This document shows, one piece after another, positions 27,591-56,378 of a stretch of DNA of 64,000 nt. The stretch comes from Brachionus plicatilis (lineage: Eukaryota; Rotifera; Eurotatoria; Ploima; Brachionidae). Every line of letters starts with the position of its first letter. Within the stretch, counting starts at the first letter, position 1. The stretch covers positions 65,188 through 129,187 of the forward strand of contig QEOQ01000626.1 of the NCBI GenBank assembly GCA_010279815.1, given 5' to 3'. The translations under genes were made by a program, and so were the position numbers. The notes beneath the pieces are model-generated. The model searched no databases. It was given only the letters and a program-made list of their open reading frames with translations, and was not told where the DNA came from.

Positions 27591-28964
27591 ATGTACAAGA
27601 AAAATTTTTTATTTTACCGAAACTTTGGCCTTAAGCGGCATCGCCTCACCACTTGTTCCTTTTTAATTGTGGTGTTTCTCACATTCATGGCATTAAACCG
27701 CTTCATATTCATATTCACCAGACCCTACTACCAAATAGATTATCCAAAGTACACATTTATACTGGAAGATGACAGACCCACTCTGAACATGTGCAGTCCA
27801 TTTAATGAAAACTACACTGAGTTTAAAGTTGTTATAGATGGTGAGCCCTATCCGCAAATAGTTCCACTTTTTTTCAACCAAAGCATTAATTTTAGTTGTT
27901 TGAACTCGAACCCCAAGCGGAAAACAATTTTGTTATGGAACAAATTTATAGGCCTGCCTAATATTCCTGTCAACAGTAGAGACCTGCATAATTTGCTGCT
28001 CAAATCCAACTGTCCAGTGACCAACTGTGATTTGACCACGGACAAAAACAAACTTAACTCGAGTGACATGGTTTTGTTTCACATGAGAAGCCGGATTCAA
28101 AAATTTCCCAAGTTCAGATTCTCGAACCAAAAATGGGTCTACGCTGTCTACGAATCCCAGCAACACTGTCCAATGTGTAGCAAATTGGATAACTTGTTTA
28201 ATCTTTCTTCAACATTTAGCTCCACATCAGACATAACTAGTATCTATTACTCTGAGTCACGGCTAAAATGGACTACCTCAAACCCCAGCTACAACGAATC
28301 AAACTTTTTGCTCAGCTCAAAGCCCGGCTTCGCTGTCATTCTCATCAGTGATTGCAATGAACATTTGAACAGACTTAAGATAGTGAAAATTTTGCGTAGA
28401 TACATACCGGTGGATATTTACGGGAAATGCTCGGATCAAGGCCTAAAATGTCCAGACATGGGAGATTGTAGGCAATATCTAGCCAAGAGATATAAATTTT
28501 TTTTTACTTTTGAAAACTCTTTTTGCAAAGAGTATGTGACAGAGAAATTTTTTAGCACCCTAAATTATGATACAGTGCCAGTGGTGCTAGGCGCAGGAGA
28601 ATACACAAAATTTGCGCCCAAGTCAGCATTCATAAATCTAATGAATTATGCAAGTCTAAATGAACTGGCCGAGTATTTGAAGCATTTAAGCAAAAATCAG
28701 ACCGCTTACCTGGAGTATTTTAAATGGAAACAGTTTATTCAAGTTGATGAGAATGAGCGAGCTTTTACGCATTATTGTGAAATGTGTATTGGTCTTCAGA
28801 TGGAAGAATTTACTGGCATTAGACACAGTGTGTTTGGAAATCATTCTAGATTGTTTACGATGCGCGACAATTGCCGCGGAATTAAAATAGAAAGTGTTTT
28901 TGGAACCATGTTTTTGAAATTGGATGATCATGATGTTAAAATGAAATATTTGGAGAGTTATTAA
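27591..28964 (+). CDS. Alpha-1,3-fucosyltransferase (GT10), copy 1
   Basis: 457 residues, single exon, type II Golgi topology: a basic N-terminus, one membrane span at about 21-43, then a stem with several N-glycosylation sites and a catalytic domain. The GT10 signature FFFTFENSFCKEYVTEKFF lies at about 303-321, followed by DTVPVVLGAGEY. It transfers fucose from GDP-fucose to N-acetylglucosamine or glucose on glycans (family knowledge; acceptor unknown). The 3' UTR has AATAAA at 29038-29043. An almost identical copy lies inverted at 48049-49422. The two share sequence only from about the ATG to about 115 bp after the stop, and differ mainly in one patch at 28340-28412 (residues about 257-272). 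Confidence 0.92.
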   Translation: MYKKNFLFYRNFGLKRHRLTTCSFLIVVFLTFMALNRFIFIFTRPYYQIDYPKYTFILEDDRPTLNMCSPFNENYTEFKVVIDGEPYPQIVPLFFNQSINFSCLNSNPKRKTILLWNKFIGLPNIPVNSRDLHNLLLKSNCPVTNCDLTTDKNKLNSSDMVLFHMRSRIQKFPKFRFSNQKWVYAVYESQQHCPMCSKLDNLFNLSSTFSSTSDITSIYYSESRLKWTTSNPSYNESNFLLSSKPGFAVILISDCNEHLNRLKIVKILRRYIPVDIYGKCSDQGLKCPDMGDCRQYLAKRYKFFFTFENSFCKEYVTEKFFSTLNYDTVPVVLGAGEYTKFAPKSAFINLMNYASLNELAEYLKHLSKNQTAYLEYFKWKQFIQVDENERAFTHYCEMCIGLQMEEFTGIRHSVFGNHSRLFTMRDNCRGIKIESVFGTMFLKLDDHDVKMKYLESY

Positions 28965-31620
28965 TATAATTTTTTGATTGTTTTATTCATAAATTTTTAG
29001 GTTATGGTGCAAATAAATTTTGGAAAATATTTATTAAAATAAAGTTTAATCACGAATAATATTTATTTAAAGGTCTTGTTATTAATTAAATATTTTACTG
29101 TAATATTTTTTACTCATTTGTGGAAATTTTCCCTATTTTTGTGGCAAGGTTTACTGACGTTCTTAGAAAATTTTTTAATTATTTTCGCTTCTATTCTTGT
29201 GAGCATTTTTAACCAAAAATTTTTGAGATTTATTCTTTAAAATTAATTTAATTTTTTTCGTTCAATTCGTAGATTTTTTTTCTCGTATTATTTCATAGAA
29301 TCATTTTCACAGAGTTATTTTCATATAATTTTTTTAAGGGATTAGATATAGAAGAATAATTTAAAAAAGTTCATCATTTTTTTACCAGAATAATAATTTC
29401 TTTTAATTTTTCATTGACATCAAATTGAAAAAATTATTTTCCTTAAAAAATTTTTCTTTGAACAAATATTAATCTACAAAAAACGAAAATCTTAATTGAC
29501 AAAAAAATAAAATTTATTTTAATAAGAGTTAATAAAGCGTATATACATTTAAAATTTGTTCATAAAAATATTTTTAAATTAATCTTTAAATTTTTCTATT
29601 AAAGTTTTGAACATAATTTCTATAACAAAAAAATTCTATGAGTATATTTCTATGAAATTTTTTTCTAACAAAATTTATTCTATTAGTTTTGTTTAATTTT
29701 ATTGATTTTCTATGAATTAGTTTTTCGATGAATTGATACATCATCGGAAATATATTTTTAATATCCCGATGATTTTTATCCAAATTGGAGATTGAATTAT
29801 CTGAAATCCACTATTTAAAAATATTATGAAAATAAAAAAAAAATTTGAAAAAATTTATTTTCTTTATACATATTCTGGGATCCAAATAAAATTTAATTTT
29901 AAATGGAAAACAAGTCACGGAGGGGGCTGCGCCCCCTCCGTACCTCCCCAGCTTTGAAATTTTAAAATATATTTTACAGACACTTGATTTTACATTTGAG
30001 GTTTTTTGACATGTCATTAAGATGTTGTCTGCTTTTGAAAGTTATTTTTAAAAAAAAAATATATATATATACGAACGTTTAGTTTAAAATATAAAATAAT
30101 TATTCACGAGTTTAAATTCTAGGCTTTTAAAGTGGTGGGGAATAACGCAGTGTAGTATTAATTTTCTTTATAGAACAAATTTCAAAAGAGACTGTGAATT
30201 TGTATATTTAGAGATGTACAATAACGCTAACCTATTATATTGAATATATCTTTTAAGGTTTTTTATTTGTGGAGGAATAGCATTTATTTCCGCGAAAACA
30301 ATAACGGTTTATTTCCTTGAAACGCTATGCTATGATTCAACAAAACGAATCCTTCTTTGTTGAGGTGAAAACACCGATGAGATTTGAGCATTTGATCCAT
30401 ATTTTTCGTCTATTGTCTTTAACATCATGCCAAGTTAAATTGTTTGCGTAAATTACTTTTAAACAGTAATTACATAAAAAAAGAATACAAAAGTTATTTA
30501 TTCAAATTTGGAATAAATAACCTTATTTTAAATTTATTAAAAATTAAAAATACTATAATTTACTCTAAAACAATCATTAAAAAACTGAGAAGTATTTTAT
30601 ATGTATAGTTGATAGCCCTTCTTAATTTGTGGCCAAAGTTGAAATTAATCTCAAATTTTTGTTTGTAAAATATTCCAAAAAAAATCCTACTTGAGATTGG
30701 ATTTTTTCCCATCTTATTAAAAAAGTTTAGAAAATTTTAATTCCAATTTTTTTTTATTAAATTGCTTAAATTTTATTAATTTATCAGTTTAAATAATAAG
30801 CTCTCTAGAGTGCTTGAGAATTTAATATTGATATATTTTTAATATTTTATAATGTTAGAATATTTCTTCAACTTTCTTGTTTGCTATTTCATTCTTTAGT
30901 TAAGCTTACCATACTAATGACTTTTTTAAGAGATATACTTCCAAAGTTGTTCCGATATAAACCTTTGATTATTTAATTTTTTTGTTAACTTTCTTTTTTT
31001 AATAAACAAATTAAAATAAGTTAGTTAAGTTAAAATGCGAATAAATTTGAGGTCACGCGAGAATAATTAAGCTATAAATTAATGGTTCATAGAATGTGGC
31101 CAATTATTTTATAAGAAAACTTTAAAGGGTACCATTTTGAGTAGGCAAGTTTTTTTGCATTTTTCATGAATAGTATCTAGAATAAATTTAGTAAGCAATT
31201 GACTATTTTAGAGTTGGAAAGAAATTATTGAGTTTTTTCTAAGATCGTTTCTTCAATTTTACTCAAAAACTACAATATCAATTTAATTTATATTACCCTT
31301 AATATTGTGCGCTTTTTGATAAAAAATTTTCAAAAAATTAATCAAATTAAATTCGCACTTTTTTTTAATTAATCAACTACTAAGCAATAGATTAATTTTA
31401 AATAATTCGACAAAAAAACACAGACTCCTCCCAACCTCGTATACCCATCTTTTAACATTGCCAAAAAATTTTCAATTCAAGTTAATAGGAAAACGAAATA
31501 TTAATTTTATATTGTTGTAGTGAATAAAATTTAAGAAATAAATTTAGTTCATATTTTTTGTATAAAAAAAATAATTTTAGTGTTCAAGGAGTTTTAAAAT
31601 AATTTAAAATCTTGAGTATG
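28965..31620. other. AT-rich spacer with a GC hairpin
   Basis: Holds the fucosyltransferase 3' UTR (to about 29078) and a GC-rich hairpin at 29917-29941. No coding sequence is seen. Confidence 0.55.
29917..29941. repeat. Strong GC-rich hairpin
   Basis: A perfect 11-bp stem (ACGGAGGGGGC / GCCCCCTCCGT) around a TGC loop in otherwise very AT-rich DNA. It is followed by ACCTCCCCAGC. Helitron 3' ends have such hairpins, but the expected CTRR terminus does not follow on either strand, so the origin is open. Confidence 0.7.
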
Positions 31621-34055: not shown

Positions 34056-34468
34056 ATGAACTTCACAACCTCAGTGCGTCGAGACTTTAGAGTTACATTT
34101 CTCGAACAGGTTAAGGCAGACCGAACATGGTACGTGAGTGAAACGATAGTTTTTGTTTGTTGAATGATTTGGTAGCTGCCGAATTGAAATATGCCGACGT
34201 TTCGGCTGGGCTGGCAGTTCGTTTACAAGTTCTCTGTTCTCTTCAAGTTGAGTAACAGTTCTTTGATTTTAGGTATTCAGCTCTCCAGCCACATGACCTA
34301 GCAGATCATTACCCGTTTATTGCGACTCTTAAAGTGGCTGTTAAAGTCGCTCTTACTGCTTTCAGTTTAATATCCGTTCTTGCTCGAGTTGGTTTAAAAT
34401 CCTGTCAACTTCTGGCTCTACTGGCTCTTCCTTTCAAAATTGGTTTGCGTATGTCGGCTTACGGCTAA
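34056..34468 (+). CDS. Possible two-exon small gene
   Basis: ATG at 34056. Exon 1 is 34056-34129 with donor GTACGT; exon 2 is 34273-34468 after TTTGATTTTAG, with stop TAA at 34466-34468. Joined it gives 89 residues in frame (270 nt). The region is clearly less AT-rich than its surroundings and codon use is balanced. The C-terminal half is hydrophobic (VAVKVALTAFSLISVLARVG), possibly one or two membrane helices. No family recognised; it could be part of an old retroelement. It is not listed as a long ORF because the intron splits it. Confidence 0.35.
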
Positions 34469-35394
34469 TTTGAGACCATTTTTCCAAGTCTGGGATGCCG
34501 ACTCGATTCAGAAAGTTTGTTTCATCTAAGTGGCTCGAGGCGTTTACAAAAAGCAGGAAGAAATAATGTGTTTTAAGAGGCAAATAGAAATTTCAGATAA
34601 AATTTTATGACCAAAACGATCATTTAAAATTTAAAATTTATTTTAAAAGACAATGAATGCTCCAGACGATACAAGCAGCATTTTATGCCTAGAGAGGGAA
34701 GGTCGGTAAGCAATACCTGCAGAGCACAGAACAGGACATTGTTAAAAATTAGGATGCCCTAGGATGCAAGCCTGATGGAAAAAATAAGAAGGGAGAAACA
34801 GACTTTGAAATGAAAAGAAGAAAAAAGAATGAAAACTAAATTATTTTTTTTGAAAAAAAAATTAAAATTGAAAATTTAGAAGGTAACAATAATGGTGCGA
34901 CATGTTGTCAAGTCTTAAAAGAATATTTTTTCAAGAAATTCGAAAAAAACAGTAGTTAAGCACCTAATAATATCGAATTCTTAAGTTAAATCTAAAAATT
35001 CTAATAAAAGAATTCAAATTTGATAAAAATCACATGATTTAAAGAGATTTTTATAAGAAAAATAAAGCAATAAAATAAAAAAGTAAAACCATAGATTTTT
35101 TCAGAATTTTTTCTAGATTTAAAAAAAAAAATCGGGTCATATTTGATCTCTCGGATGAGATACGATTTAAACCAGAAAAAACACATATATTCCCTTTTTT
35201 AGCCAACAAAAACCGCCAAAACCTTTTTTTTTAAATTACATTTAGAGAATTTAATGCTCTTTCAGTATATATATAATTTTTTAATATAATTAAGTTTTAT
35301 CTTTGAGATTTTGAGTCTTAAAGAACAACAACTTTTTAAAGGGTTTGCTATTTTTGGAACCCTGTGTGTAAAAAATTTTTTTTTCCCCCTTCAA
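34469..35394. other. AT-rich spacer, nothing recognised
   Basis: No supported ORF or RNA. The segment 34640-34800 is less AT-rich but not coding in any frame I can defend. Confidence 0.45.
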
Positions 35395-35559
35395 AAAAAT
35401 TTTCTTTTAAAATGTTCTTAATTACTTTAACGTTGTCTTCACAGGGCAACTGACCATTTCGATTTATAACATGTCCCAAATATATTACTTCATCTTTCAT
35501 AGGAAGCATTTCTCTTTGTTTAATCTTAACGTTGTAGCTTTCAATTTCTCAAAGATTAT

Positions 35560-35945
35560 TTTGAGGTGAATAAAATGATCGTCTACGGTTTTAGAAAAAA
35601 CAATTTTGTCATCCAGGTATACTAAGCAAAATTTTCCAATAATATCCTTTAGAACTTAATCAATCACTTTATGAAAAGCTGCTGGTACGTTTGTCAATCC
35701 AAATGGCATCCTTGTAAAATAGTAAAGTCCTAATGGAGTCGTAATGGCCGTTTTTTCTTATCGTTTCGATTCAATTTTATTTGATAGTATCCACTAGCCA
35801 TATCCAAGAAACTGAAACATTTAATTCCAAAAAATTTGTCTGTTGTTTCATCTAGGCTTGGGATTGGAAAGCTGTCCCTCTTTGAAACTTTATTCAGTTG
35901 TCCGTAATTAATGCATAATCTTATCTTGCCGTTTTTCTTTTTCAC
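35560..35945 (-). pseudogene. Reverse transcriptase fragment of the decayed gypsy element
   Basis: 35945-35730 encodes GKIRLCINYGQLNKVSKRDS and SFLDMASGYYQIKL, both conserved Ty3/gypsy RT blocks. After a frameshift near 35755 the next frame reads MPFGLTN and a YLDD catalytic box at about 35610-35640. Broken by a shift and stops. Confidence 0.8.
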
Positions 35946-36251
35946 AGGAACAAGGGGTGCAGCCCAGTCTGAATTATTGGTTCTATGATGTTAGTTTCCA
36001 CGAGTTCATCTAATTGTTTTTTAATTTATATTTTTAAGTGATGCGGAATTCTTCTGGAAGACTCTCGTATCAGTTCATTTCCTTGTGTGTTGATCTGATG
36101 CATCGTAAAATTGCAACAACAAAGTTAGTTAGCAAATATATCCTGGTTCTCAGATAAAAATATGTTCTTTTTGAGAAAAATCTACTCGGTTGACTACTTT
36201 GTTTTTTTCTGTCTTTAACAACTTTTCCCTACCAAGAGAACTATAAATTTC

Positions 36252-36869
36252 TTAAAATTTATCCCTAGTTCTTTGTACTTTTCCAATATAGTCAAGACCA
36301 ACTAAGCAATCATGTTGTAGGTCAACTGCCACAAAAAAATCAAGTTTCACTTCATTAGTACCAATTCTTAGAGTGAAAGCCGTGAAAGATCCAATAACGT
36401 TCAACGGTTGACCATTCGCAGTCGTAAAGGAACCTTTCGTTTTTTGTAATTCTTTACATCCTAGTTTTCTCCAGATATTTTGACTAATCAACATCTTAAC
36501 ACTTCCAGTGTCTAATAAGCATTCTATCCATTCTCCGTTTAAAAATATGTAGACATATTTTAAGCCATAATTATCTGATTCTTCATTTATATTATTTGTG
36601 TTGGTAGTGAATTGGTTTCTTTGATCATTTCCTATTGTGGTCATTGGCGTCGATCTATTTAATGAACTATTTAATGAATATTGACTATCATAACCCAATC
36701 GATTATATTGATAGTTCATGTTTTTAATTCCATTAGGACGATTCCTCTTTTTATGTCCTTCCTGATTACACAAAAAGCATTCCATTATTGATTTATGAAC
36801 TGGGTAATTTGGCATATAATACCTACTTGTTGAATTAAGATACGATCGATCGTTTGAATTATTTAGCAA
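36252..36869 (-). pseudogene. Nucleocapsid/protease fragment of the decayed gypsy element
   Basis: 205 codons. CFLCNQEGHKKRNR is a CCHC knuckle whose final cysteine is now arginine; WIECLLDTGSVKMLIS carries the DTGS aspartic-protease motif, and DCLVGLDYIG is the second protease block. The frame is open but its neighbours are broken. Confidence 0.75.
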
Positions 36870-36931
36870 TTTTTAATAATTGGACATTTTTGACTAGTTA
36901 GCATTAATCAAACTATTTTCATAGATATTTC

Positions 36932-37650
36932 TTATTGTCTCAAAGTTTTTTTGTGAATTTCCATAATATTTTTCTGGTTTTGAAACATTATATTCGATTC
37001 TAATTTTGGTGTAATTAAGTTTCTGATTTCTCCTTCTGTTATCTGTTTTCTTGTTCCTTGATTAAACATATTTCTGCTTCGTTCTCTAATCCCACTAAAA
37101 CCAAAAGGTAAACATTCGTGTTCTCTAGCCCTGAACATTAACCTCTCTAATTTTTCGTGATCCAATACAGCTAATATTTCAGCCATTTCTCTGTCACGGA
37201 CTCTTGCTAGGAATCGGCCTCGAAGATAAATATCTAGTTCCCTAAGATTTAAATCTGGAAAAACTTTTCGTCCTATTTCCTGCATTACAGCCACATACTG
37301 AACTAGGCTTTAATTTAGCTCTTGGCCTCTTCCAACAAAGGTTTGAAGGTACTAAATAGAGCTCTGAATTTAGTTTTAACTTCATCATATGACTGTTCGT
37401 TTATCAAACTATCGACTAATTTAAAAGTTGTATCATCCAAAAAAGATGCTTACACATTTATCTTATCTCTATCTCCAAAAATTCTATTTAATTCTAGATA
37501 ATTATATAACCTTGTTAGCCATACATTCACATTTGTATCTAAAGTAAAAACTGATGGGGCTCTTAAGCTTAGGTTTGCCATTATTAAACTCTTTTGGCTT
37601 TTGCTATTTCCGTTCAAACACTTTGTTGTTTCAGCTTCTTTATTCTCCAA
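36932..37650 (-). pseudogene. Gag fragment of the decayed gypsy element
   Basis: Two open stretches (37294-36932 and 37650-37450) separated by stops. They fit a retrotransposon capsid by position, upstream of the zinc knuckle, and by content (LRAPSVFTLDTNVNVWLTRL; VFPDLNLRELDIYLRGRF). Confidence 0.6.
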
Positions 37651-39736: not shown

Positions 39737-39982
39737 AAATTATATGCAGATGATACTAATATAATTTCAAAAATGAATTCTAGATGCTGCGTATCAATAA
39801 ATAAATGACTAGCTTTTAAAGTTAAATGTTTCGAAATGTGCTGTTATACATTATGGTTCCAGCATCAACAAAAAAATCGTTTTAAATCCATAGTTCCAAA
39901 TAGTTAAATCTTAATCGGAAAGAGATTTGGGCATGTTTTCAGTACTAACTTGAAATGGAGGAACCACATCCTTGTGTGTATT
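39737..39982 (+). pseudogene. Non-LTR reverse transcriptase fragment, 5' part (split by the LTR element)
   Basis: KLYADDTNIIS at 39737 holds the YADD catalytic box. Further on, in shifting frames, come LNVSKCAVIHYGS and SERDLGMF. This is the order seen in CR1/L2-like reverse transcriptases. The reading continues at 47663, across the intact LTR element. Confidence 0.75.
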
Positions 39983-40186
39983 TGTAAAGTCTCAACTTAG
40001 AAGTGACTTTAGGGTGGGAACAATAAGAAGGAACAAATGTAAAATTAAGTGAATAGTTTATTAAATGGAATCCCCAAAATTATACAAGTAGTTAGTGGTT
40101 TATATAGTAGCTAGAACATGTGCTCTAGCTGCAGTTAATTCAAGATTAAATCATAAGTAAGACATGTCAAGATTTGGGTCTTAACA
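39983..40186 (-). repeat. 3' LTR of the intact gypsy element
   Basis: 204 bp, identical to the other LTR by my reading. Element-strand start TGTTAAGACCC, end CTTTACA. Confidence 0.95.
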
Positions 40187-40200
40187 TACCTTCCCCTCAG
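40187..40200 (-). other. Polypurine tract of the intact gypsy element
   Basis: On the minus strand CTGAGGGGAAGGTA directly precedes the 3' LTR; this is the normal site and composition for plus-strand priming. Confidence 0.75.
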
Positions 40201-40305
40201 TAAAGAGTGGCTTGTGTGCCAAAATAACACAAAAACAAAAAAGAGAAAGGTTGACAACAACTACAAAAAATAAAATAAAAAAAGAAAATGAATAGCTCCA
40301 TGACG

Positions 40306-41241
40306 TCAGTAATGGAGTCGGCTGTAGTAATTTCGGCCCAGCCGCGTGCGACATTGTGGGCAACTGCGTTGTTCTGCTTTAACCCATCGCCTCAAGCAGG
40401 GCTCGCAAAAGAGGTGTCCACATTGCGTGCTTACCACGCTTATAACGTTGCTAAAATCATCCATGCATACCACGCAACTGCCAGCCGAGAAGTTATGACT
40501 TTTCGCTTTTGGTAGAGGGCTGAGCTCTGCTATCGGGATAAACTCGGCTTCCCGGGGCCTCTCATTCTGGGCTTCCCCCATTTGTTGCCTGATCGGCAGC
40601 GGTATCCATGCCCGAGTGGCTACTGCGTCTAAGGTGGGTGTTGAGTCGCGGCTGGGAGCCCTAGCTTGAGGTTCGAGAAGCAGCTGGGTAATCTCTTGAA
40701 GACTCCTCACCTGTTCAGTCAGTCCTTGAACCTGGCCGACCAACACTTGGTTTGCTTCCCTCGCCGCTTCTAGTTCTTGCTGTTGCAGCGTCGTCTGCTG
40801 TTGTGACGATTGAACCTGCCTCTCTAATTGGCGGTTCGCTTCCTTTAGGCGGTCTAGCTCGGTTAACTGTTCTCGGTGTTGAGCCGTAAGCTCGCGTTTG
40901 AGCTGCTCTATTTGTTCGAGTTGATTGGCGACTCGTGGTGTTGCTGGCGTGTCTTGTAGCATGTGGTGGGGTTGAGTTGGTTTCTTATTTAGCTCAAACC
41001 AAATCTCGGTACCTGGTACACCCTGCCCGTTTAGAAATTTGACGGCTTCCTGATGGATGGCCGGGTTTTCGTACCGTACAAATGCAAAGTTTGTCTTATG
41101 GAAGTTGCGGGACGGACCAAGTACAACGGTTCTTATCGGACCTAACCTTCCCGAATACTTATTGAGCTCTTCAATTAGTATTCGCTTTGAATTGGGCACG
41201 TTGGGTATGCCGTGTACCATTATATCTGGCATGGTGTCCAT
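40306..41241 (-). CDS. Extra retrotransposon ORF: RRM + coiled coil + RING finger protein
   Basis: 311 residues, intact, downstream of pol in the place where env would sit. Residues 6-88 form an RNA-recognition motif (RNP2 IMVHGIP 7-13; RNP1-like KTNFAFVRY 49-57). Residues 105-190 are a long Gln/Glu/Leu-rich coiled coil. Residues 256-297 are a C3HC4 RING: C256, C259, C274, H276, C279, C282, C294, C297, with all eight ligands present. RING plus coiled coil suggests an oligomeric E3 ubiquitin ligase, and the RRM suggests RNA binding; both are inferences from domain type. There is no signal peptide or membrane span, so it is not an envelope protein. GC content and codon use are like gag-pol. It starts 360 bp after the pol stop, just after a 25-base A run (element strand). 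Confidence 0.9.
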   Translation of the reverse strand: MDTMPDIMVHGIPNVPNSKRILIEELNKYSGRLGPIRTVVLGPSRNFHKTNFAFVRYENPAIHQEAVKFLNGQGVPGTEIWFELNKKPTQPHHMLQDTPATPRVANQLEQIEQLKRELTAQHREQLTELDRLKEANRQLERQVQSSQQQTTLQQQELEAAREANQVLVGQVQGLTEQVRSLQEITQLLLEPQARAPSRDSTPTLDAVATRAWIPLPIRQQMGEAQNERPREAEFIPIAELSPLPKAKSHNFSAGSCVVCMDDFSNVISVVSTQCGHLFCEPCLRRWVKAEQRSCPQCRTRLGRNYYSRLHY

Positions 41242-41248
41242 TCTTTAA

Positions 41249-41273
41249 TTTTTTTTTTTTTTTTTTTTTTTTT
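41249..41273 (-). repeat. 25-nt homopolymer (A on element strand) before the RRM-RING ORF
   Basis: Uninterrupted T run on the plus strand, hence A25 in the element RNA, ending 7 nt before the ORF start codon. Such a run is unusual inside an otherwise GC-balanced element. Confidence 0.9.
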
Positions 41274-41602
41274 GAAACAACTACTTTAAAAATAATTAGA
41301 AAAAGTTGAATAACATTACAAAATGAAAATTGAGAAATTTTATTATTTAGCTAGTCACATAAAAGTGTCTTTTGAATATTTATTTACAATTGCAAATGTA
41401 CTTTGCATCGAATTGGGGTTGACAAAGATTTAGATTTTGGGGCACTGACTAGGGCCAATTTAACCCCATTAAGTGAGTGAAAGAGTAAGGTTTGGGCTAT
41501 TTAGGCTGACCAATTCGACCTTAGAAAAACAATAGAAGGAAAAATAAAAAGAGTAAAGATTATCGATGCTGCAAATGTACATTGGCTTAACGTTGGATCG
41601 TA

Positions 41603-44600
41603 TCAAAGTTTAAGCCGGTCAACTGGCTTTCGCACACGTTGACTTCTCCGGGTTCCAGGTGAGCGAGCTTCATTTAGCCGCTTCTTAAGGTACTTGCTGG
41701 GTTTGTAAGTTTCGTCTTCATCTGTTGATTCCAAAACAGCTGTTGGCGATACTTCAAGAGTCTTCGTATTCGACACTCTTTCACTCCGTGTTGCTCCTGC
41801 CCTTCCCTTACCACGTGCTGAAACCGGTAAACTACTTCTTAATTTCTTGTTTTTCTTAGAGGTTTTAGCTTTGATTTCTACGACATCATCGTCATTTAAT
41901 GGTGCTGAAGTTGAGCCAAAGAACTTTTTAAGCCTGTTGTGGTGTATTAGTTTTATTTTTGAGTTCTTTTGTTGGTACTTTTTAATTTTATAGTTGACTG
42001 GTCCAATTTTCTCTAAGATACAATACGGTCCTTCCCATTTTGGGGCTAGTTTCTTTGATTGGCCAGTTTTGACCGATGGCTTATTAAGCATTACCAATTC
42101 ACCGACTTGGTATTCCATCGGCTTAATGTTCCTATCATAGTAGATCTTTGACTTTTCCACTTTACAATCACGGTTGGTTTCCACCACTTTGTAAACTGCT
42201 CGCAAATGCTCTTTCAGCTCTTTTACGTATTGGGTCACCATGAACATTTCCGTGTTCTGCTCGCTAACAACTACTAACTCGCCCTCTTCATCCTGGGCTT
42301 GGTTCATCTCCATGACCAGATCTAATGGGATTTTCGGTTTCCTTCCGTAGACGACTTCATAAGGCGTACAATTGGTTGTTGCGTGCGTCGATGTGTTGTA
42401 GGCGTATGCAAGATACGGTAACAGCTCGTCCCAATTGTTCTGGTTGTCATCTACAAAGCAGGACAACATAGTTTTTAATGTCCGATTGAACCGTTCGGTT
42501 AAGCCGTCACACTCCGGGTGGTATGGGGAGGTTTTCAATTGGTGGATGTCTAACATCTCGTAAACGCGTCTGAGTAGTTCCGATTGGAAATTCTTAGCCC
42601 CGTCTGTTAAGATGTTTACACATAACCCATGGCTCATCATAAATTGCATTAACCGGTTTGCTACACTCTCTGCCGTCATGTTCTCCAGCGCAAATAACGC
42701 TACCCATTTAGAGAAATGGCAGCAAATGACTAGGATGTAAAGGAAACCATTTTTAGATACTGGGAGTTGGCAGGTAATATCGCATGTGATTAGTTGTAGT
42801 GGTTTTGTCGGAATTAGTGGCTGGAGACGTGCTCTTTGAACCCATTTAGGATTTTTAACTTTTTGGCAGACAGGGCACTCTCTTACCAGTTGAATTACTT
42901 TCGCCTTCAGACCTGTTCTGAAGAATCTGTCTTGGATTTTATCCAATGTTTTTTTAACTCCGAGATGACCGTGAAACACTGAGCAATGTATAAATTGGAA
43001 GATGCTTGTAACCATATGGGTTGGTAGCAGAGTGAGCTTTCTCCGTTCGCCATTTTCACTTTCTCTATACAAAAACAAAGTCTCGTCAACAAGTCTGAGA
43101 TGCTCNNNNNNNNNNNNNNNNNNNNNNNNNNNNNNNNNNNNNNNNNNNNNNNNNNNNNNNNNNNNNNNNNNNNNNNNNNNNNNNNNNNNNNNNNNNNNNN
43201 NNNNNNNNNNNNNNNNNNNNNNNNNNNNNNNNNNNNNNNNNNNNNNNNNNNNNNNNNNNNNNNNNNNNNNNNNNNNNNNNNNNNNNNNNNNNNNNNNNNN
43301 NNNNNNNNNNNNNNNNNNNNNNNNNNNNNNNNNNNNNNNNNNNNNNNNNNNNNNNNNNNNNNNNNNNNNNNNNNNNNNNNNNNNNNNNNNNNNNNNNNNN
43401 NNNNNNNNNNNNNNNNNNNNNNNNNNNNNNNNNNNNNNNNNNNNNNNNNNNNNNNNNNNNNNNNNNNNNNNNNNNNNNNNNNNNNNNNNNNNNNNNNNNN
43501 NNNNNNNNNNNNNNNNNNNNNNNNNNNNNNNNNNNNNNNNNNNNNNNNNNNNTGGCAGACAGGGCACTCTCTTACCAGTTGAATTACTTTCGCCTTCAGA
43601 CCTGTTCTGAAGAATCTGTCTTGGATTTTATCCAATGTTTTTTTAACTCCGAGATGACCGTGAAACACTGAGCAATGTATAAATTGGAAGATGCTTGTAA
43701 CCATATGGGTTGGTAGCAGAGTGAGCTTTCTCCGTTCGCCATTTTCACTTTCTCTATACAAAAACAAAGTCTCGTCAACAAGTCTGAGATGCTCATAGTT
43801 GTGGTAAACCGCTCGTTTGAAGTGCGAATCCAGCTCTATCTTCTTGAGTGTTGGTTGTTCGTCTCCATGTATTCGAACTAAATTTTTGGCCCAAAGGATA
43901 TCTTCGTCTCTGTCTTGTTCCTCGGCGGTAACTACTACTCTTTGGGTTGGGTCAGTGGCCTCACACTCTATTCTATTGCTAATGACATTGACGTGTTTGT
44001 GAGCGCCGTCCGAGTCATCGTCCTTACTAATAACAACTACGCTAAAGTCGGTGTCCCCTGTTTCTGATCGCTTGATAACACAATTAACTACCTTTTGATT
44101 ATTGTCTGAGTCCATATTCCCTTCTTCATCATCTGATCTTGTACCAAGTGGCCAACGTGATAATGCATCGGCGTTTGTGTGCACCTTTCCATTTCTGTAC
44201 ATGATTTTGAAGGCGTATACATTTATTCTAATGATCCATCGTGAGAGTCTAGCGTTGGGGTTCGCACATGATAGAAGCCAGGAAAGGGGTTGGTGGTCTG
44301 TGACGACGTCAAACTCTCTCCCAAAAAGGTATTGGTGAAAATGTTCCATGGATAGGACTATGGCGAGCAACTCTTTTTCGGTAGTGGAGTAGTTGCGTTG
44401 TGCTTTTGATAGGGCCTTGCTGAAGTAGGCTATGGGCCGAACCGCTCCATTCTTTTCTTGAGACAAGACTGCTCCAATTCCGATGTTGCTTGCGTCTGTT
44501 TCGAGAATGAACCTTTTTGATAGGTCTGGCAGGATAAGGATGGCAAGGCTTGACAGATAAGTACGTAACCTCTGGAAGGCATGTTCGCACGCGTCGTCCC

Positions 44601-45234
44601 AATTCAGGTTCTTATGGCCTATTGCTTCTTCTTTGGTGGTCAGTTTGTAAAGCGGGCTGGCGATTCCTGCGAAATTCTCGATGAATCTTCGGTAATACTG
44701 TGCCAATCCGAGAAAGCTTTGTAATTGTCTTAAAGTCTGCGGACGTTCGTATTTGTAAAGGGCTTCACACTTCTTCTCGTCTGGTTTGATTTCTCCATTC
44801 GAAACAACATGGCCTAAGAATGTAATTTCTTGTTTCGCTACCTCACACTTCTTCAGTTTTATGGAAAGTTGATGAAGTCGGAGTTCATTTATTACCATTT
44901 GAATGTGATTTAAGTGTTCGATTAAGTTGGCTGAGTGAATTAAAATGTCGTCCAAGAAAACAACTACGAAGCCTGCTTCAATGAACCTTTTTAATACTTT
45001 GTTCATTGAGCGCTGAAAAGTTGCTGGGGCATTGGTTAAACCCATGGGCATTACTAGGTATTCAAAGAGACCCCATTCACAAATGAATGCTGTGTACTGG
45101 CGGCTTGTGGCGTCCATTAGAATTTGGAAATAACCTGTAAATAAGTCCAACTTGGTGTACCATCTTGACTTGGCCAACAGTGTGTAGAGTTCCTCGCAGT
45201 TTGGTAACGGGTAGGCATCCTTCCAGGTCTCATT
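41603..45234 (-). CDS. Pol of the intact gypsy element: RT, RNase H, integrase
   Basis: Continues the gag-protease frame after one TAA (45238-45240). RT blocks WYTKLDLFTGYFQI, MPMGLTNAPATFQ and FLDD (about 44947-44958). RNase H starts at ETDASNIGIGAVLSQ and includes the STTEKELLA and TDHQPL blocks. The integrase zinc domain is H-x5-H...CPVC; the DDE core shows TCDIT, ILTDGAKNF and YHPECDGLTE; then a GPY-type block (WEGPYCILEKIG) and a basic tail. An N gap (43106-43552) splits it, and the 242 bp on each side of the gap are duplicates (42864-43105 = 43553-43794). Collapsing the duplicate keeps one continuous frame. It reverse-transcribes and integrates the element. Confidence 0.93.
43106..43552. 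other. Assembly gap (447 N) between duplicated flanks
   Basis: The sequence just left (42864-43105) is repeated exactly just right (43553-43794). This pattern arises when two overlapping contigs are scaffolded without merging, so the gap probably represents no real sequence. Confidence 0.9.
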
Positions 45235-45237
45235 GTT

Positions 45238-47082
45238 TTAGAGTCGATAGTCCACCGTTATTCTTAGGGATCCGTCTGGCTTGGTGACTAACATGAGGGG
45301 TGAAGCCCACGGCGAATTGCTTGGCTGGATGAGCTTAGCGTCTAACATTTCGTCCAACATTTTTTTAAATTCCTCTCGCGCGCTGTATGGTATCCGCCTT
45401 GTTTTTTGCCTTATTGGTTCAATGTTCGGGTTCATCAACTGAATGGTGTGCTCAAAGCATTGTGACGGTTTAAGTTCTCTAAGGGATGATGCAGCTATGC
45501 TTTTGATTGACTCCTGTATTTTGTTCATATATTTGTCTATATTGGTGTCCGTGACGCTGCGTATGTACCTTGAAGAGTTGTACACGTTCATCAAATAAAA
45601 CCTGGGTTCAATCGTCACTTGTTTACTCATTTGCACTACGACCTTTCTTAATTCGTCTATTGGTTTTTTGAAAAATGGGAATTGTTGGAGCAGGTCCATT
45701 CCTAGTAGGCAATCCACCACCAGATCTTTGATAACAACTAAAAACGTGAATATCGAGACTTCTCCAATGGTAATTTGGGCGTATGTTCTACCTAGAACGG
45801 TTAAGCCGCTACCACCTGCGCTTGCAATTAGATTAGGCACTGGCTCTAAAATTGTCGGGTGTTTTAAACTTGAGTATGCGCGATCACTGATTACTGTAAT
45901 CTCAGCACCTGTATCAAGTGTATATTTGATCGGTAGCTCATTTAATAGGCATACTCCCTCAATTTCATCGTGTTTGTATACCGGTATTCGTTGGGCTGCG
46001 CTTTGGTCCGGTTCTGATCTGTTGTAGCATGCTCGAACCCTGGTAGTTGTCATGCAGTTGGAAGGTCGACTCGCTCGGTAGTTTCTAAGGCAGTCCTTGG
46101 CGAGATGCTTGTGATGTGTACAGTTAGTGCACCAGTCTTGATTTGGTTTAGTAGTAAAATTTGCTCGATGTTGTGGAATATCGTTATTGTATTGACCACT
46201 CTGGAGTCCGTTTATCCCTTGACTCTCGGCATTGCATCGACTAAATGCCTTCTCCAGCTCAGATGCCTTCTTGAGCGTCTCGTTGATCGAGCCAATTGGA
46301 GATGACTTGCATAGTTCTTGTTTTATTTTAACGTCATGAATTCCTCTAATAAAGCGGTCAAGGATCATTGGCTCTAGAAGTGCTTGTCTTTGGTCAGGGT
46401 GAGCTGCTCTCGCTAAGCTTTCGAGTTCGCTCAGGTAGTTGTAGACGTTCTCATTGGGTCGTTGCCTCCGAGATACGAATTCCCTCAGAGGGTCGTGATA
46501 TTGCGCATCCTTTCCATACAAATTTGTGAGTACTTCTATGATTTCTTCGTAACTAGCGTTTGGTTTTCGTTGTAGCAGCCTTTGTTCCAGTTTTATAAGA
46601 CAGCTCTCTTCGATTAGCGTTAGTAGGGCTCCGGTCTTATCTTTCAGTCGTGAGGCATACCGTTCAAAGGTGCGTAGCCAGTGGTTGAAATCTCGGTCTT
46701 CTGTGAACCTGGGTGGAATGTAGGATGGGACACTCATGATTGGTACTGGATAGTGAACTTTTGTCTTGGTTAACCATTGGATTGGTGAGTACACTATTGT
46801 TAACCCTACGTTGAATAAGTCAGCTGCTGTTTTGAATCTGATGTGGCTGTAAACAACTATAATAACGACCAGGAGTGATGCACAATATAGAAGTTGAATG
46901 TAGTTGTTTTGGTATTGGTTAAGCATTTGAGCGTACATGCTTCCCATTAACACCTTGAATAGTTCTCCGATTGTCGCTTGTGGGGTTGGTGTTGGATTCT
47001 TCATGTTTTCCTTGTCATTTGTGTCGTAGAGTCCGAAAAACCACTTCGTCATTATGTCTTTTAATTTATCTACCTGTTTCAT
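45238..47082 (-). CDS. Gag-protease (to start of RT) of the intact gypsy element
   Basis: 614 codons ending at an in-frame TAA inside RT. Residues 62-79 form a hydrophobic, probably membrane-spanning helix (IQLLYCASLLVVIIVVYS), unusual for Gag. Residues about 115-270 are a retrotransposon capsid domain (FNHWLRTFERYAS; the YNYLSELESLAR region). 308-321 is a CCHC knuckle (CTNCTHHKHLAKDC). 380-383 is the protease DTGA, with the second block DCLLGMDLL later. About 545-614 is the first RT block (SNSPWASPLMLVTKPDGS). The stop falls right after the DYRL motif. Gag packages the RNA; the protease cuts the polyprotein. Confidence 0.9.
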   Translation of the reverse strand: MKQVDKLKDIMTKWFFGLYDTNDKENMKNPTPTPQATIGELFKVLMGSMYAQMLNQYQNNYIQLLYCASLLVVIIVVYSHIRFKTAADLFNVGLTIVYSPIQWLTKTKVHYPVPIMSVPSYIPPRFTEDRDFNHWLRTFERYASRLKDKTGALLTLIEESCLIKLEQRLLQRKPNASYEEIIEVLTNLYGKDAQYHDPLREFVSRRQRPNENVYNYLSELESLARAAHPDQRQALLEPMILDRFIRGIHDVKIKQELCKSSPIGSINETLKKASELEKAFSRCNAESQGINGLQSGQYNNDIPQHRANFTTKPNQDWCTNCTHHKHLAKDCLRNYRASRPSNCMTTTRVRACYNRSEPDQSAAQRIPVYKHDEIEGVCLLNELPIKYTLDTGAEITVISDRAYSSLKHPTILEPVPNLIASAGGSGLTVLGRTYAQITIGEVSIFTFLVVIKDLVVDCLLGMDLLQQFPFFKKPIDELRKVVVQMSKQVTIEPRFYLMNVYNSSRYIRSVTDTNIDKYMNKIQESIKSIAASSLRELKPSQCFEHTIQLMNPNIEPIRQKTRRIPYSAREEFKKMLDEMLDAKLIQPSNSPWASPLMLVTKPDGSLRITVDYRL

Positions 47083-47155
47083 GGCTAGATTCTACGTGGG
47101 TACCTAGTTTCTCCTTTTATAATCCGTTTTCTTGAACGTGATTACCGAGTGCTGG

Positions 47156-47398
47156 GGTACTATCTGTGCGAACGTACTGTTGGTATAGCGTCGTATTCAC
47201 GAGTGTATACCGGTATGATCTATTCACCAGATGGGTCGCGTAGCGTCTAGTAGATTTTGCACGTGGGTACCGTTTGTTTTGCTTGGTTGCAACTGCGTGG
47301 GCTGCTATATGTGGTACTATCTGTGCGAACGTACTTTTGGTATAGCGTCGTTTTCACGAGTGTATACCGGTATTATCTATTCACCAGATGGGTCGCGT
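47156..47398 (-). repeat. Two 86-bp repeats in the leader of the gypsy element
   Basis: 47156-47241 and 47313-47398 are about 95% identical (GGTACTATCTGTGCGAACGT to ATGGGTCGCGT), 157 bp apart, lying between the 5' LTR and gag. They may be part of the packaging or translation leader. Confidence 0.85.
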
Positions 47399-47439
47399 GA
47401 GTCTAATCTTGAGAATCCTACTAAAATATATAATAGAAT

Positions 47440-47458
47440 CCTCCCGTTGGGCACCAAA
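47440..47458 (-). other. Primer-binding site of the intact gypsy element
   Basis: Directly after the 5' LTR the element strand reads TTTGGTGCCCAACGGGAGG. A TGG start implies pairing with a tRNA CCA end. I cannot name the tRNA with certainty. Confidence 0.7.
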
Positions 47459-47662
47459 TGTAAAGTCTCAACTTAGAAGTGACTTTAGGGTGGGAACAAT
47501 AAGAAGGAACAAATGTAAAATTAAGTGAATAGTTTATTAAATGGAATCCCCAAAATTATACAAGTAGTTAGTGGTTTATATAGTAGCTAGAACATGTGCT
47601 CTAGCTGCAGTTAATTCAAGATTAAATCATAAGTAAGACATGTCAAGATTTGGGTCTTAACA
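47459..47662 (-). repeat. 5' LTR of the intact gypsy element
   Basis: 204 bp, identical to 39983-40186. Confidence 0.95.
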
Positions 47663-47800
47663 TATTAATAAAGCAAATCAAATGCTTGAGAGAATCAAAA
47701 AATCGTTTGCTAGATTTGATATTAAGTGAATGAGGTTACTTTATTCCACCTTTGTACGTCCACTTTTGAAGTTTGCAGTTAGTCGAGACTTAGAAAATTT
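47663..47800 (+). pseudogene. Non-LTR reverse transcriptase fragment, 3' part
   Basis: Reads NKANQMLERIKKSFARFDIK, a stop, then LLYSTFVRPLLKFAVS. This is the block that follows 'LKW.NHI' in CR1/L2-like RTs, and it continues in frame from the part at 39737-39982 once the LTR element and its TATT duplication are set aside. Confidence 0.75.
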
Positions 47801-48048
47801 AATTTCCAAAAATTGAAAAAAAATTCAATTAATTTTAAAGATTTTTTTAATCAATAAATATAAAATATTTCTGATCAAATATGCCCACTAGTAAAGGAGC
47901 AAAAACAATTTAATAATTTTCTAAATAACAACAGCAAGACCTTTGAATAAATATTATTTGTGATTAAACTTTATTTTAATAAATATTTTCCAAAATTTAT
48001 TTGCACCATAACCTAAAAATTTATGAATAAAACAATCAAAAAATTATA

Positions 48049-49422
48049 TTAATAACTCTCCAAATATTTCATTTTAACATCATGATCATCCAATTTCAAA
48101 AACATGGTTCCAAAAACACTTTCTATTTTAATTCCGCGGCAATTGTCGCGCATCGTAAACAATCTAGAATGATTTCCAAACACACTGTGTCTAATGCCAG
48201 TAAATTCTTCCATCTGAAGACCAATACACATTTCACAATAGTGCGTAAAAGCTCGCTCATTCTCATCAACTTGAATAAACTGTTTCCATTTAAAATACTC
48301 CAGGTAAGCGGTCTGATTTTTGCTTAAATGCTTCAAATACTCGGCCAGTTCATTTAGACTTGCATAATTCATTAGATTTATGAATGCTGACTTGGGCGCA
48401 AATTTTGTGTATTCTCCTGCGCCTAGCACCACTGGCACTGTATCATAATTAAGGGTGCTAAAAAATTTCTCTGTCACATACTCTTTGCAAAAAGAGTTTT
48501 CAAAAGTAAAAAAAAATTTATATCTCTTGGCTAGATATTGCCTACAATCTCCCATGTCTGGACATTTTAGGCCTTGATCCGAGCATTTCCCGTAAATATC
48601 AACTGGTATGTATTTTCGTAAAGCTCCTACTATCTTACGATTGTTCAAATATTCATTGCAGTCACTGATGAGGATGACAGCGAAGCCGGGCTTTGAGCTG
48701 AGCAAAAAGTTTGATTCGTTGTAGCTGGGGTTTGAGGTAGTCCATTTTAGCCGAGACTCAGAGTAATAGATACTAGTTATGTCTGATGTGGAGCTAAATG
48801 TTGAAGAAAGATTAAACAAGTTATCCAATTTGCTACACATTGGACAGTGTTGCTGGGATTCGTAGACAGCGTAGACCCATTTTTGGTTCGAGAATCTGAA
48901 CTTGGGAAATTTTTGAATCCGGCTTCTCATGTGAAACAAAACCATGTCACTCGAGTTAAGTTTGTTTTTGTCCGTAGTCAAATCACAGTTGGTCACTGGA
49001 CAGTTGGATTTGAGCAGCAAATTATGCAGGTCTCTACTGTTGACAGGAATATTAGGCAGGCCTATAAATTTGTTCCATAACAAAATTGTTTTCCGCTTGG
49101 GGTTCGAGTTCAAACAACTAAAATTAATGCTTTGGTTGAAAAAAAGTGGAACTATTTGCGGATAGGGCTCACCATCTATAACAACTTTAAACTCAGTGTA
49201 GTTTTCATTAAATGGACTGCACATGTTCAGAATGGGTCTGTCATCTTCCAGTATAAATGTGTACTTTGGATAATCTATTTGGTAGTAGGGTCTGGTGAAT
49301 ATGAATATGAAGCGGTTTAATGCCATAAATGTGAGAAAAACTACAATTAAAAAGGAACAAGTGGTAAGGCGATGTCGCTTAAGGCCAAAGTTTCGGTAAT
49401 ATAAAAAATTTTTCTTATACAT
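48049..49422 (-). CDS. Alpha-1,3-fucosyltransferase (GT10), copy 2
   Basis: 457 residues, single exon, same architecture as copy 1 (27591-28964): membrane span at 21-43, GT10 signature at 303-321. Outside residues 257-272 it differs from copy 1 at only two residues (F/Y at 8, T/I at 64). In that patch, where copy 1 has NEHLNRLKIVKILRRYIP, copy 2 has NEYLNNRKIVGALRKYIP. The transcript-like block 47935-49432 is shared and the flanks are unrelated. Both copies look functional. Confidence 0.92.
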   Translation of the reverse strand: MYKKNFLYYRNFGLKRHRLTTCSFLIVVFLTFMALNRFIFIFTRPYYQIDYPKYTFILEDDRPILNMCSPFNENYTEFKVVIDGEPYPQIVPLFFNQSINFSCLNSNPKRKTILLWNKFIGLPNIPVNSRDLHNLLLKSNCPVTNCDLTTDKNKLNSSDMVLFHMRSRIQKFPKFRFSNQKWVYAVYESQQHCPMCSKLDNLFNLSSTFSSTSDITSIYYSESRLKWTTSNPSYNESNFLLSSKPGFAVILISDCNEYLNNRKIVGALRKYIPVDIYGKCSDQGLKCPDMGDCRQYLAKRYKFFFTFENSFCKEYVTEKFFSTLNYDTVPVVLGAGEYTKFAPKSAFINLMNYASLNELAEYLKHLSKNQTAYLEYFKWKQFIQVDENERAFTHYCEMCIGLQMEEFTGIRHSVFGNHSRLFTMRDNCRGIKIESVFGTMFLKLDDHDVKMKYLESY

Positions 49423-49432
49423 ATTTTTAGAT

Positions 49433-53004: not shown

Positions 53005-53912
53005 ATTGGAATGAGCTGAATAGAAGAAAATGAGTCAGGTAGAACTAAGCATGTAAAAAGATAAAAAACATAAATAAAGAAAATGAAAAATAAAGAAAAA
53101 TTTTGATTTAATTGATAAGAAAAAAAAACATATAACAAATTTTATAAAAAGATAAAAAAACATATATTTAAAATCCAATTTTTTTGATATTTTCAGTTTA
53201 ATAAAAAAGTTTTAGTTTAAAAAAACATTTAATCAATTTAAAATTAAAGATAAAATCAAAATTCAAATCCTTTGCGCTAAAAGACGAATTATTTTTTTCA
53301 CGTAAATTTAAAGGTATTTTAACACATTTTTTATCATTATTAGTTGAAAAATTAAAATTGAAATTAATTTTTCTAAAAAACTTATAAATTTTTCAAACTG
53401 GAGGGTTTAAACTATATCTATAGCAATTCAAGGTTTGACCGTTAATGGGGTAAAACCGTGAAATATACTTTGAATGACTTTAACTTTTCTTTGGAATAAA
53501 AATTTACTATTAAATGTAAAAAAGCATGTAAAGAACGCTTCGTTAATAAAACTTGCCAATTAAATTTTAATTAAAATTTTTTTTATTTAATTTAAACGAC
53601 TAATCTTCGCTACTAAAAAGAAAATGCCGATCTTCAAAACAATTTCTTGATAATTGGTAAAAATTTGAACATGAAACACTATTTTATGTCATTTTTGATG
53701 CTTATTATATTCTTAGTGAAAAATTCAAAAACTTTTTTCTGTTATTTGAAAATAAAATAAGTTTGAGAAAAAAATGTGATTTGGTTTAAACAGTTAATTT
53801 CATTTATTGCAATAAATAAGGTCGATTTTCAATTTGATCGATATTTAAAAATGCGAGTTTTGAAACAATTAGAAGATGAAAGGGTAAAAATGTTGAAAAA
53901 AAGAGGAAAAAA

Positions 53913-54143
53913 ATGACAATAATCAGTGATAAAGAAGATGAAGAAGAGTTTTAAATTGAAATATCTCAACTGAACGACCAAAAAAGTTGTTTAAAATGTA
54001 AAACAGTATTTGGAAAAGTCAAAACAAATCAAAACAAACAGATTTCTTGTGAGAAATGTAACAATTGGTCTTGTGGGAAATTCCTTCCAAGAGGCTTTGA
54101 TTTAACTATGGAATTTTTTTGTTCAAAAAAGTGTTCTAAATAG
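53913..54143 (+). pseudogene. Mini acidic/Cys-rich ORF in the left arm (one in-frame stop)
   Basis: The frame begins MTIISDKEDEEEF, meets TAA at 53952-53954, then reads on as a Cys-rich peptide: SCLKCKTVFGK...ISCEKCNNWSCGK...MEFFCSKKCSK, stop. Three CxxC/CxxxC-type pairs suggest one or two bound zincs. The acidic start and closing FFCSKKC resemble the 91-residue ORF at 4954-5229. The real start may be spliced in from upstream (MRVLKQLEDERVKM at about 53849). Confidence 0.4.
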
Positions 54144-56040: not shown

Positions 56041-56211
56041 AAACAGAAAAAAATACTCCGAAGATATCATTGACAATTCGTTTCCCAACACTATTTTGAA
56101 TTCTACAGAACATACGGAGAAAGATTTGGCTGCCAAGTCATCGGATGAAATCAATTGGCCTTATTTAAATTTTTTTTTATGTTTGAGATATTTTTTTAAG
56201 TCAACTATCTG
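56041..56211 (+). pseudogene. Possible captured exon in the arm
   Basis: After TTTATTACAG an open frame of about 57 codons has protein-like composition (KKYSEDIIDNSFPNTILNS; TEHTEKDLAAKSSDEINWP) and ends at TGA. A less certain upstream piece with EQELANRVTVLLAVL lies at about 55923-55970. An identical mirrored copy is in the right arm (about 61047-61217). Not recognised. Confidence 0.3.
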
Positions 56212-56378
56212 ACGGTTTTGAAAACTAATCAGTCCTGATAATTAAAATCTGTCTTAATTACATTTTTTTAGTAAAAGAAAAAATTATAGCAAAAAATTTG
56301 AGATGCAATGATCGAATTGGCACCCACGACTAACTTTAACTGGCCTGAAATTGCATCCGGAAAGGCTTACAACATTTT

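Follow-up and report, generated by a model that had tools for sequence, protein, structure and literature searches.

Extra open reading frames (ORFs) are frequent in long terminal repeat (LTR) retrotransposons, and many of them have neither a known domain nor a sign of selection. In rotifers, LTR elements with a captured third frame (ORF3) are known from bdelloids as Vesta, Juno and TelKA, whose ORF3s are env-like or encode a GDSL esterase or a DEDDy exonuclease (Rodriguez et al. 2017, PMC5408684). In orchids, a Ty3/gypsy lineage has acquired an additional ORF for an enzyme directed at RNA, an m6A demethylase-like AlkB-type 2-ODD domain that is active in vitro (PMC9289625). A third system for comparison is CNOT4/Not4, an RNA-linked E3 with the domain order RING–coiled coil–RRM–C3H1, the RING being N-terminal (PMC7692201). 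The subject of the present analysis is ORF3 of a Ty3/gypsy element of Brachionus plicatilis, which lies in a stretch of 64,000 nucleotides (assembly GCA_010279815.1, contig QEOQ01000626.1, positions 65,188 to 129,187 of the forward strand; hereafter "the window") and which joins an RRM to a RING. Comparison of its copies supports the view that ORF3 is an old accessory gene of its Ty3/gypsy lineage, under purifying selection.

The likeness to Vesta, Juno and TelKA is that all are rotifer LTR elements with an ORF3 that is not part of pol; moreover, the non-autonomous bdelloid family TelKA2n kept ORF3 after losing most of pol, as did a pol-less derivative described below. The differences from the elements of PMC5408684 are three. 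The cargo differs: GDSL, DEDDy and paramyxovirus-like env domains are absent from the 14 families matched by the window ORF3 at E up to 0.01. Juno, Vesta and TelKA have a dUTPase between protease (PR) and reverse transcriptase (RT), whereas the scanned pieces of the present element gave no such domain at E up to 0.001. Finally, intragenomic variation of the bdelloid ORF3s was found in that study to be mostly neutral, whereas here the coding frame is constrained. ORF3 and its parts are as follows.

40306..41241, minus strand: ORF3, with RRM, conserved linker, coiled coil and RING, 311 aa (open frame, Pfam, alignment, AlphaFold2)
40978..41226, minus strand: RRM of ORF3, aa 6–88 (Pfam, PDB matches, alignment, model, fold matches)
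40675..40938, minus strand: coiled coil of ORF3, aa 102–189 (single long helix in the model, heptad-like periodicity)
40348..40479, minus strand: C3HC4 RING of ORF3, aa 255–298, with a conserved tail after it (Pfam, PDB matches, alignment)
41242..41602, minus strand: spacer from the pol stop to the ORF3 start, 361 bp (sequence)

ORF3 follows pol, which ends at 41603, and precedes the 3′ LTR (39983–40188); it runs from ATG to TGA over 311 codons. An earlier, sequence-only reading of the window had picked out this intact frame in this position, leaving the strand unstated, and had assigned to it an RRM, a long coiled coil and a complete C3HC4 RING; the frame is confirmed, and the domains are backed by Pfam and AlphaFold2, both RRM and RING scoring above their Pfam cut-offs. 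For the RRM, the Pfam profile RRM_1 scores 23.4 bits at aa 24–80, which is only just above its cut-off of 20.7. Judged by the usual consensus of the two motifs, there is an RNP1-like TNFAFVRY at aa 50–57 and an RNP2-like IMVHGI, which lacks the usual aromatic, at aa 7–12. Sequence matches of this region in the PDB include RBMY and PABP. The AlphaFold2 model gives ORF3 the order of an RRM (strand 7–13, helix 18–33, strands 36–41 and 50–57, helix 60–73, strand 81–84), and the 50 Foldseek rows listed are, judged by title, RRM proteins or complexes containing one; RRM chains head both the Foldseek and the VIA-align lists, the latter also including some aspartate kinase rows. In relatives of ORF3 the RRM is marginal or missing by sequence. 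The RRM assignment is supported by a profile match just above cut-off, by sequence matches in the PDB and by a predicted fold. The heptad-like periodicity of the coiled coil is significant in the window ORF3 (p=0.002) and weak or absent in some relatives.

The RING is matched by Pfam zf-RING_2 at aa 255–298 with 45.2 bits (cut-off 27.3), and its region is modelled with a pLDDT of about 90 or more; the predicted template modelling score (pTM) of the ORF3 model is 0.32, which leaves the arrangement of the domains undefined. Its best PDB match by sequence is RNF4 (43–46 bits per RING), which is also the best by profile, and the RINGs of TRIM21 and TRIM25 are among the matches as well. In an alignment of 10 full-length ORF3 proteins, drawn from 17 of which seven truncated or fused ones were left out, all eight zinc ligands are invariant, as is R298, the residue after the last cysteine, which holds the linchpin position of RNF4-type RINGs. 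Residues of the RRM and a linker, IWFELN..PT..LQ..PA..RV..QL, are conserved in the same alignment. A B. plicatilis protein, P0002, annotated as "E3 ubiquitin-ligase RNF4", differs little from ORF3 beyond its lack of the coiled coil.

Comparison with cellular proteins covered CNOT4/Not4, RNF4 and the TRIM family. CNOT4/Not4 has the same three domains, and one of the fold matches (2cpi) is to its RRM, but the order is the opposite of that in ORF3 and no C3H1 is found in ORF3 by Pfam at E up to 0.01; membership was rejected on these two grounds. The RING of RNF4 is nearer by sequence than any other in the PDB, and its linchpin arginine stands in the corresponding position, but RNF4 matches in the RING only. 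TRIM proteins share the RING and the coiled coil, but have the RING at the N-terminus whereas that of ORF3 is C-terminal, and neither B-box nor SPRY is found in the window ORF3 at E up to 0.01. The "TRIM-like logic" of the sequence-only reading therefore survives as an analogy, the absence of B-box and SPRY being as that reading had it, and ORF3 was rejected as a member of the TRIM family. A role as an envelope protein, as in an env-carrying retrovirus or errantivirus, which the position next to the 3′ LTR might suggest, was also rejected: no transmembrane segment is present in any of the 10 ORF3 proteins (KD19 maximum 0.54–1.42).

The reading that we prefer, tentatively and with slightly more doubt than belief, is that ORF3 is an RNA-tethered RING ubiquitin ligase, the likely targets of which would be proteins of host silencing or restriction that sit on the RNA of the element; the putative RNA-binding E3 of the sequence-only reading is thereby upheld as a prediction. 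The RRM would bind the RNA of the element, the coiled coil would oligomerise ORF3 and so bring its RINGs together in pairs, as in RNF4, and a host E2 would be recruited by the RING for ubiquitin transfer. The RRM would thus stand in for a substrate-recognition domain, the target being whatever sits on the bound RNA; as no other substrate domain was seen, selection of the target would fall to the bound RNA. Host silencing and restriction proteins are the favoured targets by analogy with ICP0 and other RING proteins encoded by DNA viruses, which act against such proteins.

LINE ORF1p is an RNA-binding protein with an RRM and a coiled coil, without a RING, with another domain order and encoded upstream of pol; its likeness to ORF3 is that of a retroelement RNA-binding protein with those two domains. 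ORF3 might likewise be mainly an RNA chaperone or packaging protein, with a RING that serves structure or dimerisation and does not act as a ligase. A profile comparison of two distant ORF3 groups aligns the RRM and linker (115 columns, 98.7% probability) and not the RING, which fits a chaperone. So do three losses that weigh against a ligase: L018 and L020 each lack one RING ligand in their genomic copies, and L046 lacks the linchpin. However, none of the 10 aligned proteins has lost the linchpin arginine or a zinc ligand, and distant ORF3 families do have a RING, though a diverged one. Since each loss is confined to one genomic copy and may reflect decay, they leave the odds of the ligase reading unchanged, and the chaperone alternative appears decidedly unlikely.

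How widely ORF3 occurs was determined by searching the genome (102.9 Mb, 173 contigs). ORF3 queries from three families (I, V and II, defined below) gave 92 match rows, which merge into 40 places, including RING-only matches that are possibly host genes. The RT of the window gave 94 rows, merging into 90 elements, which is a lower bound as 92 of 417 candidates were scored. The sequence-only reading had asked whether other gypsy copies carry the frame at the same place, and they do: ORF3 lies on the same strand, at most 6 kb downstream, in 14 of the 90 gypsy RT elements found, against two placements upstream or on the opposite strand within the same distance. These elements are concentrated among close relatives of the window copy, with 12 of the 23 elements of at least 50% RT identity having ORF3 and 2 of the 67 below that (Fisher p=3.4e-7). 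One of the latter two, C40:662698, has its ORF3 outside the LTR pair of the element, and this ORF3 is probably a neighbour rather than a part of it, in which case the count is 13. The ORF3-bearing loci fall into five families and one further locus.

Family I: window copy, L009, L010
Family II: L011, L016
Family III: L012–L015, L017
Family IV: L018, L020, L028
Family V: L024, L026, L027 and loci among L033–L042
L046: apart from families I–V

ORF3 has diverged in each of families I–V and in L046. The identities of RT and ORF3 rise and fall together (Mantel rho 0.69, p=0.006, nine elements), which implies that ORF3 has largely travelled with pol; in the tree, 9 of the 18 inner branches are open, and the row of L046 was too long to place. 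All named database relatives of ORF3 are from B. plicatilis (6 of 16 matches in one search, 5 of 5 in another). An origin from a virus was rejected: IMG/VR yielded no relative (29 pattern matches, none confirmed) and BFVD no match at E up to 0.001.

The possibility that ORF3 is a functionless fragment of a host gene, captured by chance in one copy, can be given hardly any credence. Random captures of host genes by LTR elements are known, two cases being mentioned in PMC5408684. Here, however, there are many copies in several LTR families, with divergence that follows that of RT and with coding constraint, and the only other ORF3 matches of more than 54% identity, at C68 and C33, both lie beside an integrase. 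A one-off capture was therefore rejected on recurrence (the 14 of 90 RT elements found) and on constraint, and the case that ORF3 occurs in this copy only, as a captured host gene, was not what was found.

Constraint on the coding frame was measured by the method of Nei and Gojobori as the ratio of the proportions of nonsynonymous and synonymous differences (pN/pS). The bootstrap upper bound is below 1 in 22 of 27 ORF3 comparisons, the codons of which come from tblastn matches, a source that biases pN downwards where sequences are far diverged. Synonymous sites are saturated in eight of the 27, and a frameshift spoils one more (L011–L016); among the remaining 18, which share sequences and hence are not independent, 13 are below 1, e.g., window–L010 at 0.47 (0.28–0.86), L012–L014 at 0.26 (0.16–0.40), L018–L020 at 0.34 (0.24–0.52) and L034–L039 at 0.29 (0.22–0.37). 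The other five (L009–L010, L012–L013, L014–L015, L014–L017 and L018–L028) do not exclude 1. As a control, DNA alignments of seven ORF3 pairs were each read in three frames (for L013/L014, the coding frame is frame 1 of a stretch starting upstream). In all seven pairs the coding frame has the lowest pN/pS, from 0.27 to 0.54 with upper bounds below 1, and the 14 other frames range from 0.59 to 2.04; the purifying selection that the sequence-only reading had looked for is borne out. From one family to another, ORF3 changes more quickly than gag, RT or integrase do.

This conservation also bears on the proposal that ORF3 restrains its own element, tagging the ribonucleoprotein of the element for decay and thereby keeping its copy number down. 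The low number of copies (at least 23 merged RT elements of at least 50% identity) agrees weakly with such a role. However, elements of this kind are expected to be out-competed, as is argued in PMC5408684, and the coding frame is still conserved, so that self-restraint seems highly improbable.

As to expression, the 361-bp spacer has stops in all frames, and ORF3 is thus not a plain read-through product; for the same reason its translation would begin at its own start codon, the message being spliced or some other subgenomic RNA. A pyrimidine-rich stretch with AG near the end of the spacer is a possible 3′ splice site, judging from its bases. Five database contigs of 1.02–1.07 kb (P0004, P0006, P0009, P0010 and P0012) consist of ORF3 and little else, and could be subgenomic ORF3 transcripts or merely short contigs. 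A run of poly-A ahead of ORF3, considered as the mark of a retrocopy, was rejected, since the run differs in length among copies, and L009 and L010, the sister copies, have a short one.

The element that carries ORF3 has the following parts.

39983..47664, minus strand: whole Ty3/gypsy element, bounded by direct repeats with 206/206 bases identical
47459..47664, minus strand: 5′ LTR (direct repeat and flanks)
39983..40188, minus strand: 3′ LTR (direct repeat and flanks)
39983–40186 and 47459–47662, minus strand: LTR proper, with TG...CA ends (repeat and flanks)
39979–39982 and 47663–47666: target-site duplication TATT, 4 bp (flank sequence)
47439..47458, minus strand: primer-binding-site-like sequence directly inside the 5′ LTR (sequence)
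45238..47082, minus strand: gag, aspartic protease and start of RT, 614 aa (ORF and Pfam)
43797..45177, minus strand: RT and RNase H (Pfam RVT_1, RT_RNaseH)
43106..43552: run of N in pol, 447 bp, between identical 242-bp stretches (42864–43105 and 43553–43794)
41603..43102, minus strand: integrase with H2C2, rve and a p58_C/GPY-type end (Pfam)
40189..40198, minus strand: polypurine-tract-like, purine-rich stretch ahead of the 3′ LTR (sequence)

Pfam searches of three pieces gave gag, PR, RT–RNase H and integrase in the gypsy order, with a Gag knuckle, CX2CX4HX4C, at aa 318 of the 614-aa frame. The identical LTRs and the TATT duplication make it fair to call the element very young, as the sequence-only reading did. 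Duplications of 4 bp were read in 7 of 9 elements with inspected flanks (the window copy, L009, L013, L018, L026, L027 and L028); in L016 the repeat ends within the LTRs and L024 is cut at the edge of its locus. Other copies have the same or a similar primer-binding-site-like stretch at the LTR edge, and the 64-kb window holds no tRNA gene for comparison with it. The run of N probably marks a gap in the assembly, the ends of which overlap. At the gag–pol boundary, an in-frame stop that is lacking in the sister copy L009 cuts off gag, PR and the start of RT from the rest of RT. The pol frame of the window copy is thus interrupted as assembled, and ORF3 is nonetheless open.

The gag frame brings in the most serious competitor for the target of the putative ligase. 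An N-terminal hydrophobic segment seems to be unusual for a gypsy Gag. Such a segment lies at aa 61–79 of the 614-aa frame and is found in all 10 gag reads, three of them partial (window copy, L009, L011–L013, L016, L018, L024, L026 and L027; KD19 maximum 1.49–2.95); it is predicted to anchor Gag in the membrane. None of the 10 has a PPxY or P(T/S)AP match within its first 520 residues. RNA-bound ORF3 might therefore act on the Gag of its own element, the ubiquitin being a signal for ESCRT-driven release or trafficking, in place of the recruitment of a host E3 by an element without env. The pol-less derivative, which keeps gag and ORF3 together, also fits this proposal. Conversely, YPxnL-like strings are matched in 3 of the 10 gags (L011, L016 and L018), so that a route by way of the host is possible; the RRM points to a substrate defined by RNA and not by Gag; and the membrane anchoring is a prediction from hydropathy. 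Action on Gag is, on balance, somewhat unlikely, and the evidence at hand does not decide between host silencing proteins and Gag as the target.

The derivative in question is an element with gag and ORF3 but no pol, present in at least two copies, L012 and L013, that have the same layout (about 3.35 kb in L013) and are 94.9% alike over 3111 columns. L013 has LTRs that are 95.8% alike and a 4-bp duplication; its gag is broken and its ORF3 is open from about residue 34 on, whereas in L012 gag is open and ORF3 is broken ahead of the RING. The derivative thus multiplied after the loss of pol, but neither copy is intact; the pN/pS of their ORF3s, 0.73 (0.34–1.84), does not exclude neutral change. 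A shorter deletion derivative, L028, belongs to family IV. In the same family, the element at L018 2113–8597 has LTRs that are alike at 229/229 bases, a RING without its first cysteine and an RRM part that is partly in N.

An ORF3 match that is near full length and free of internal stops is found only in the window copy and in C95 (L011). Among the 23 RT elements of at least 50% RT identity, 11 have no ORF3 match. In C27, the RT of which is nearly that of the window, the expected place of ORF3 is in N; C55 (with 268 N) and C51 have the expected stretch without an ORF3 detectable by profile; and C37 (L047/L048, C37:96700–99900), a gypsy element with an RT 54% identical to that of the window, has a different ORF of 203 aa in its place, without a Pfam match or similarity to ORF3. 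Thus, the slot of ORF3 is variable: in these four related elements ORF3 is missing, replaced or in N. The order of strands and helices in the 203-aa ORF is possibly RRM-like by eye, which is a lead only.

The window also holds an older relic of ORF3.

34068..34574, minus strand: older broken ORF3 relic (genome search match C19:99255–99761; frames with stops)

In the region of this relic (34068–37294, minus strand), the frames 36252–36869 and 36932–37294 look gag/protease-like by eye. Two further features of the window are of separate interest. The first is a pair of inverted gene copies (27585–29083 and 47930–49428), 98% alike, with a 457-aa frame that is glycosyltransferase-like by eye only; the second copy is just outside the 5′ LTR of the element. 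The other is a perfect inverted repeat of 3121 bp (53258–56378 and 60880–64000) with 4501 bp between its arms, the second of which reaches the edge of the window; it is a palindrome or an assembly artefact.

Where the finding stands among published elements can be judged from the following. The main text of PMC5408684 is without the words RING, RRM and ubiquitin, and that of PMC9289625 is without the word RING; RING, RRM and ubiquitin are likewise absent from a survey of bdelloid transposable elements (PMC7943196) and from PMC6338049, and the words ORF and ubiquitin from a paper on Brachionus repeats (PMC6555955). PMC8195603 deals with TRADD-N immunity proteins, and its available part names no RRM–RING ORF. 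Among the titles listed in searches of the open-access PMC literature (15 of 54 in one of them), none concerns an RRM–RING ORF in a retroelement, subscription papers being outside the search. The sequence-only reading had proposed a new type of accessory gene; a gypsy element with a captured ORF3 is a known kind, whereas the RRM–RING cargo appears to be new within that literature.

This lineage keeps what is recognisable as a regulatory machine, with RNA-reading and ubiquitin-transfer domains, and the coding constraint indicates that the cargo pays. It is quite possible, though we hold this slightly more guardedly than the ligase reading itself, that the lineage has its own RNA-guided ubiquitin ligase, clustered by its coiled coil, as an ICP0-like weapon against host silencing, replacing the envelope gene and old enough to have reached several families and a pol-less derivative. 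If this is true, a mobile element would target proteins via the RNA that they bind, which would be a mode of counter-defence. A single protein of some 300 residues in a laboratory rotifer would be enough to test such a mode directly, and the degradation of proteins directed by RNA would find a natural template in the RRM–RING pair.
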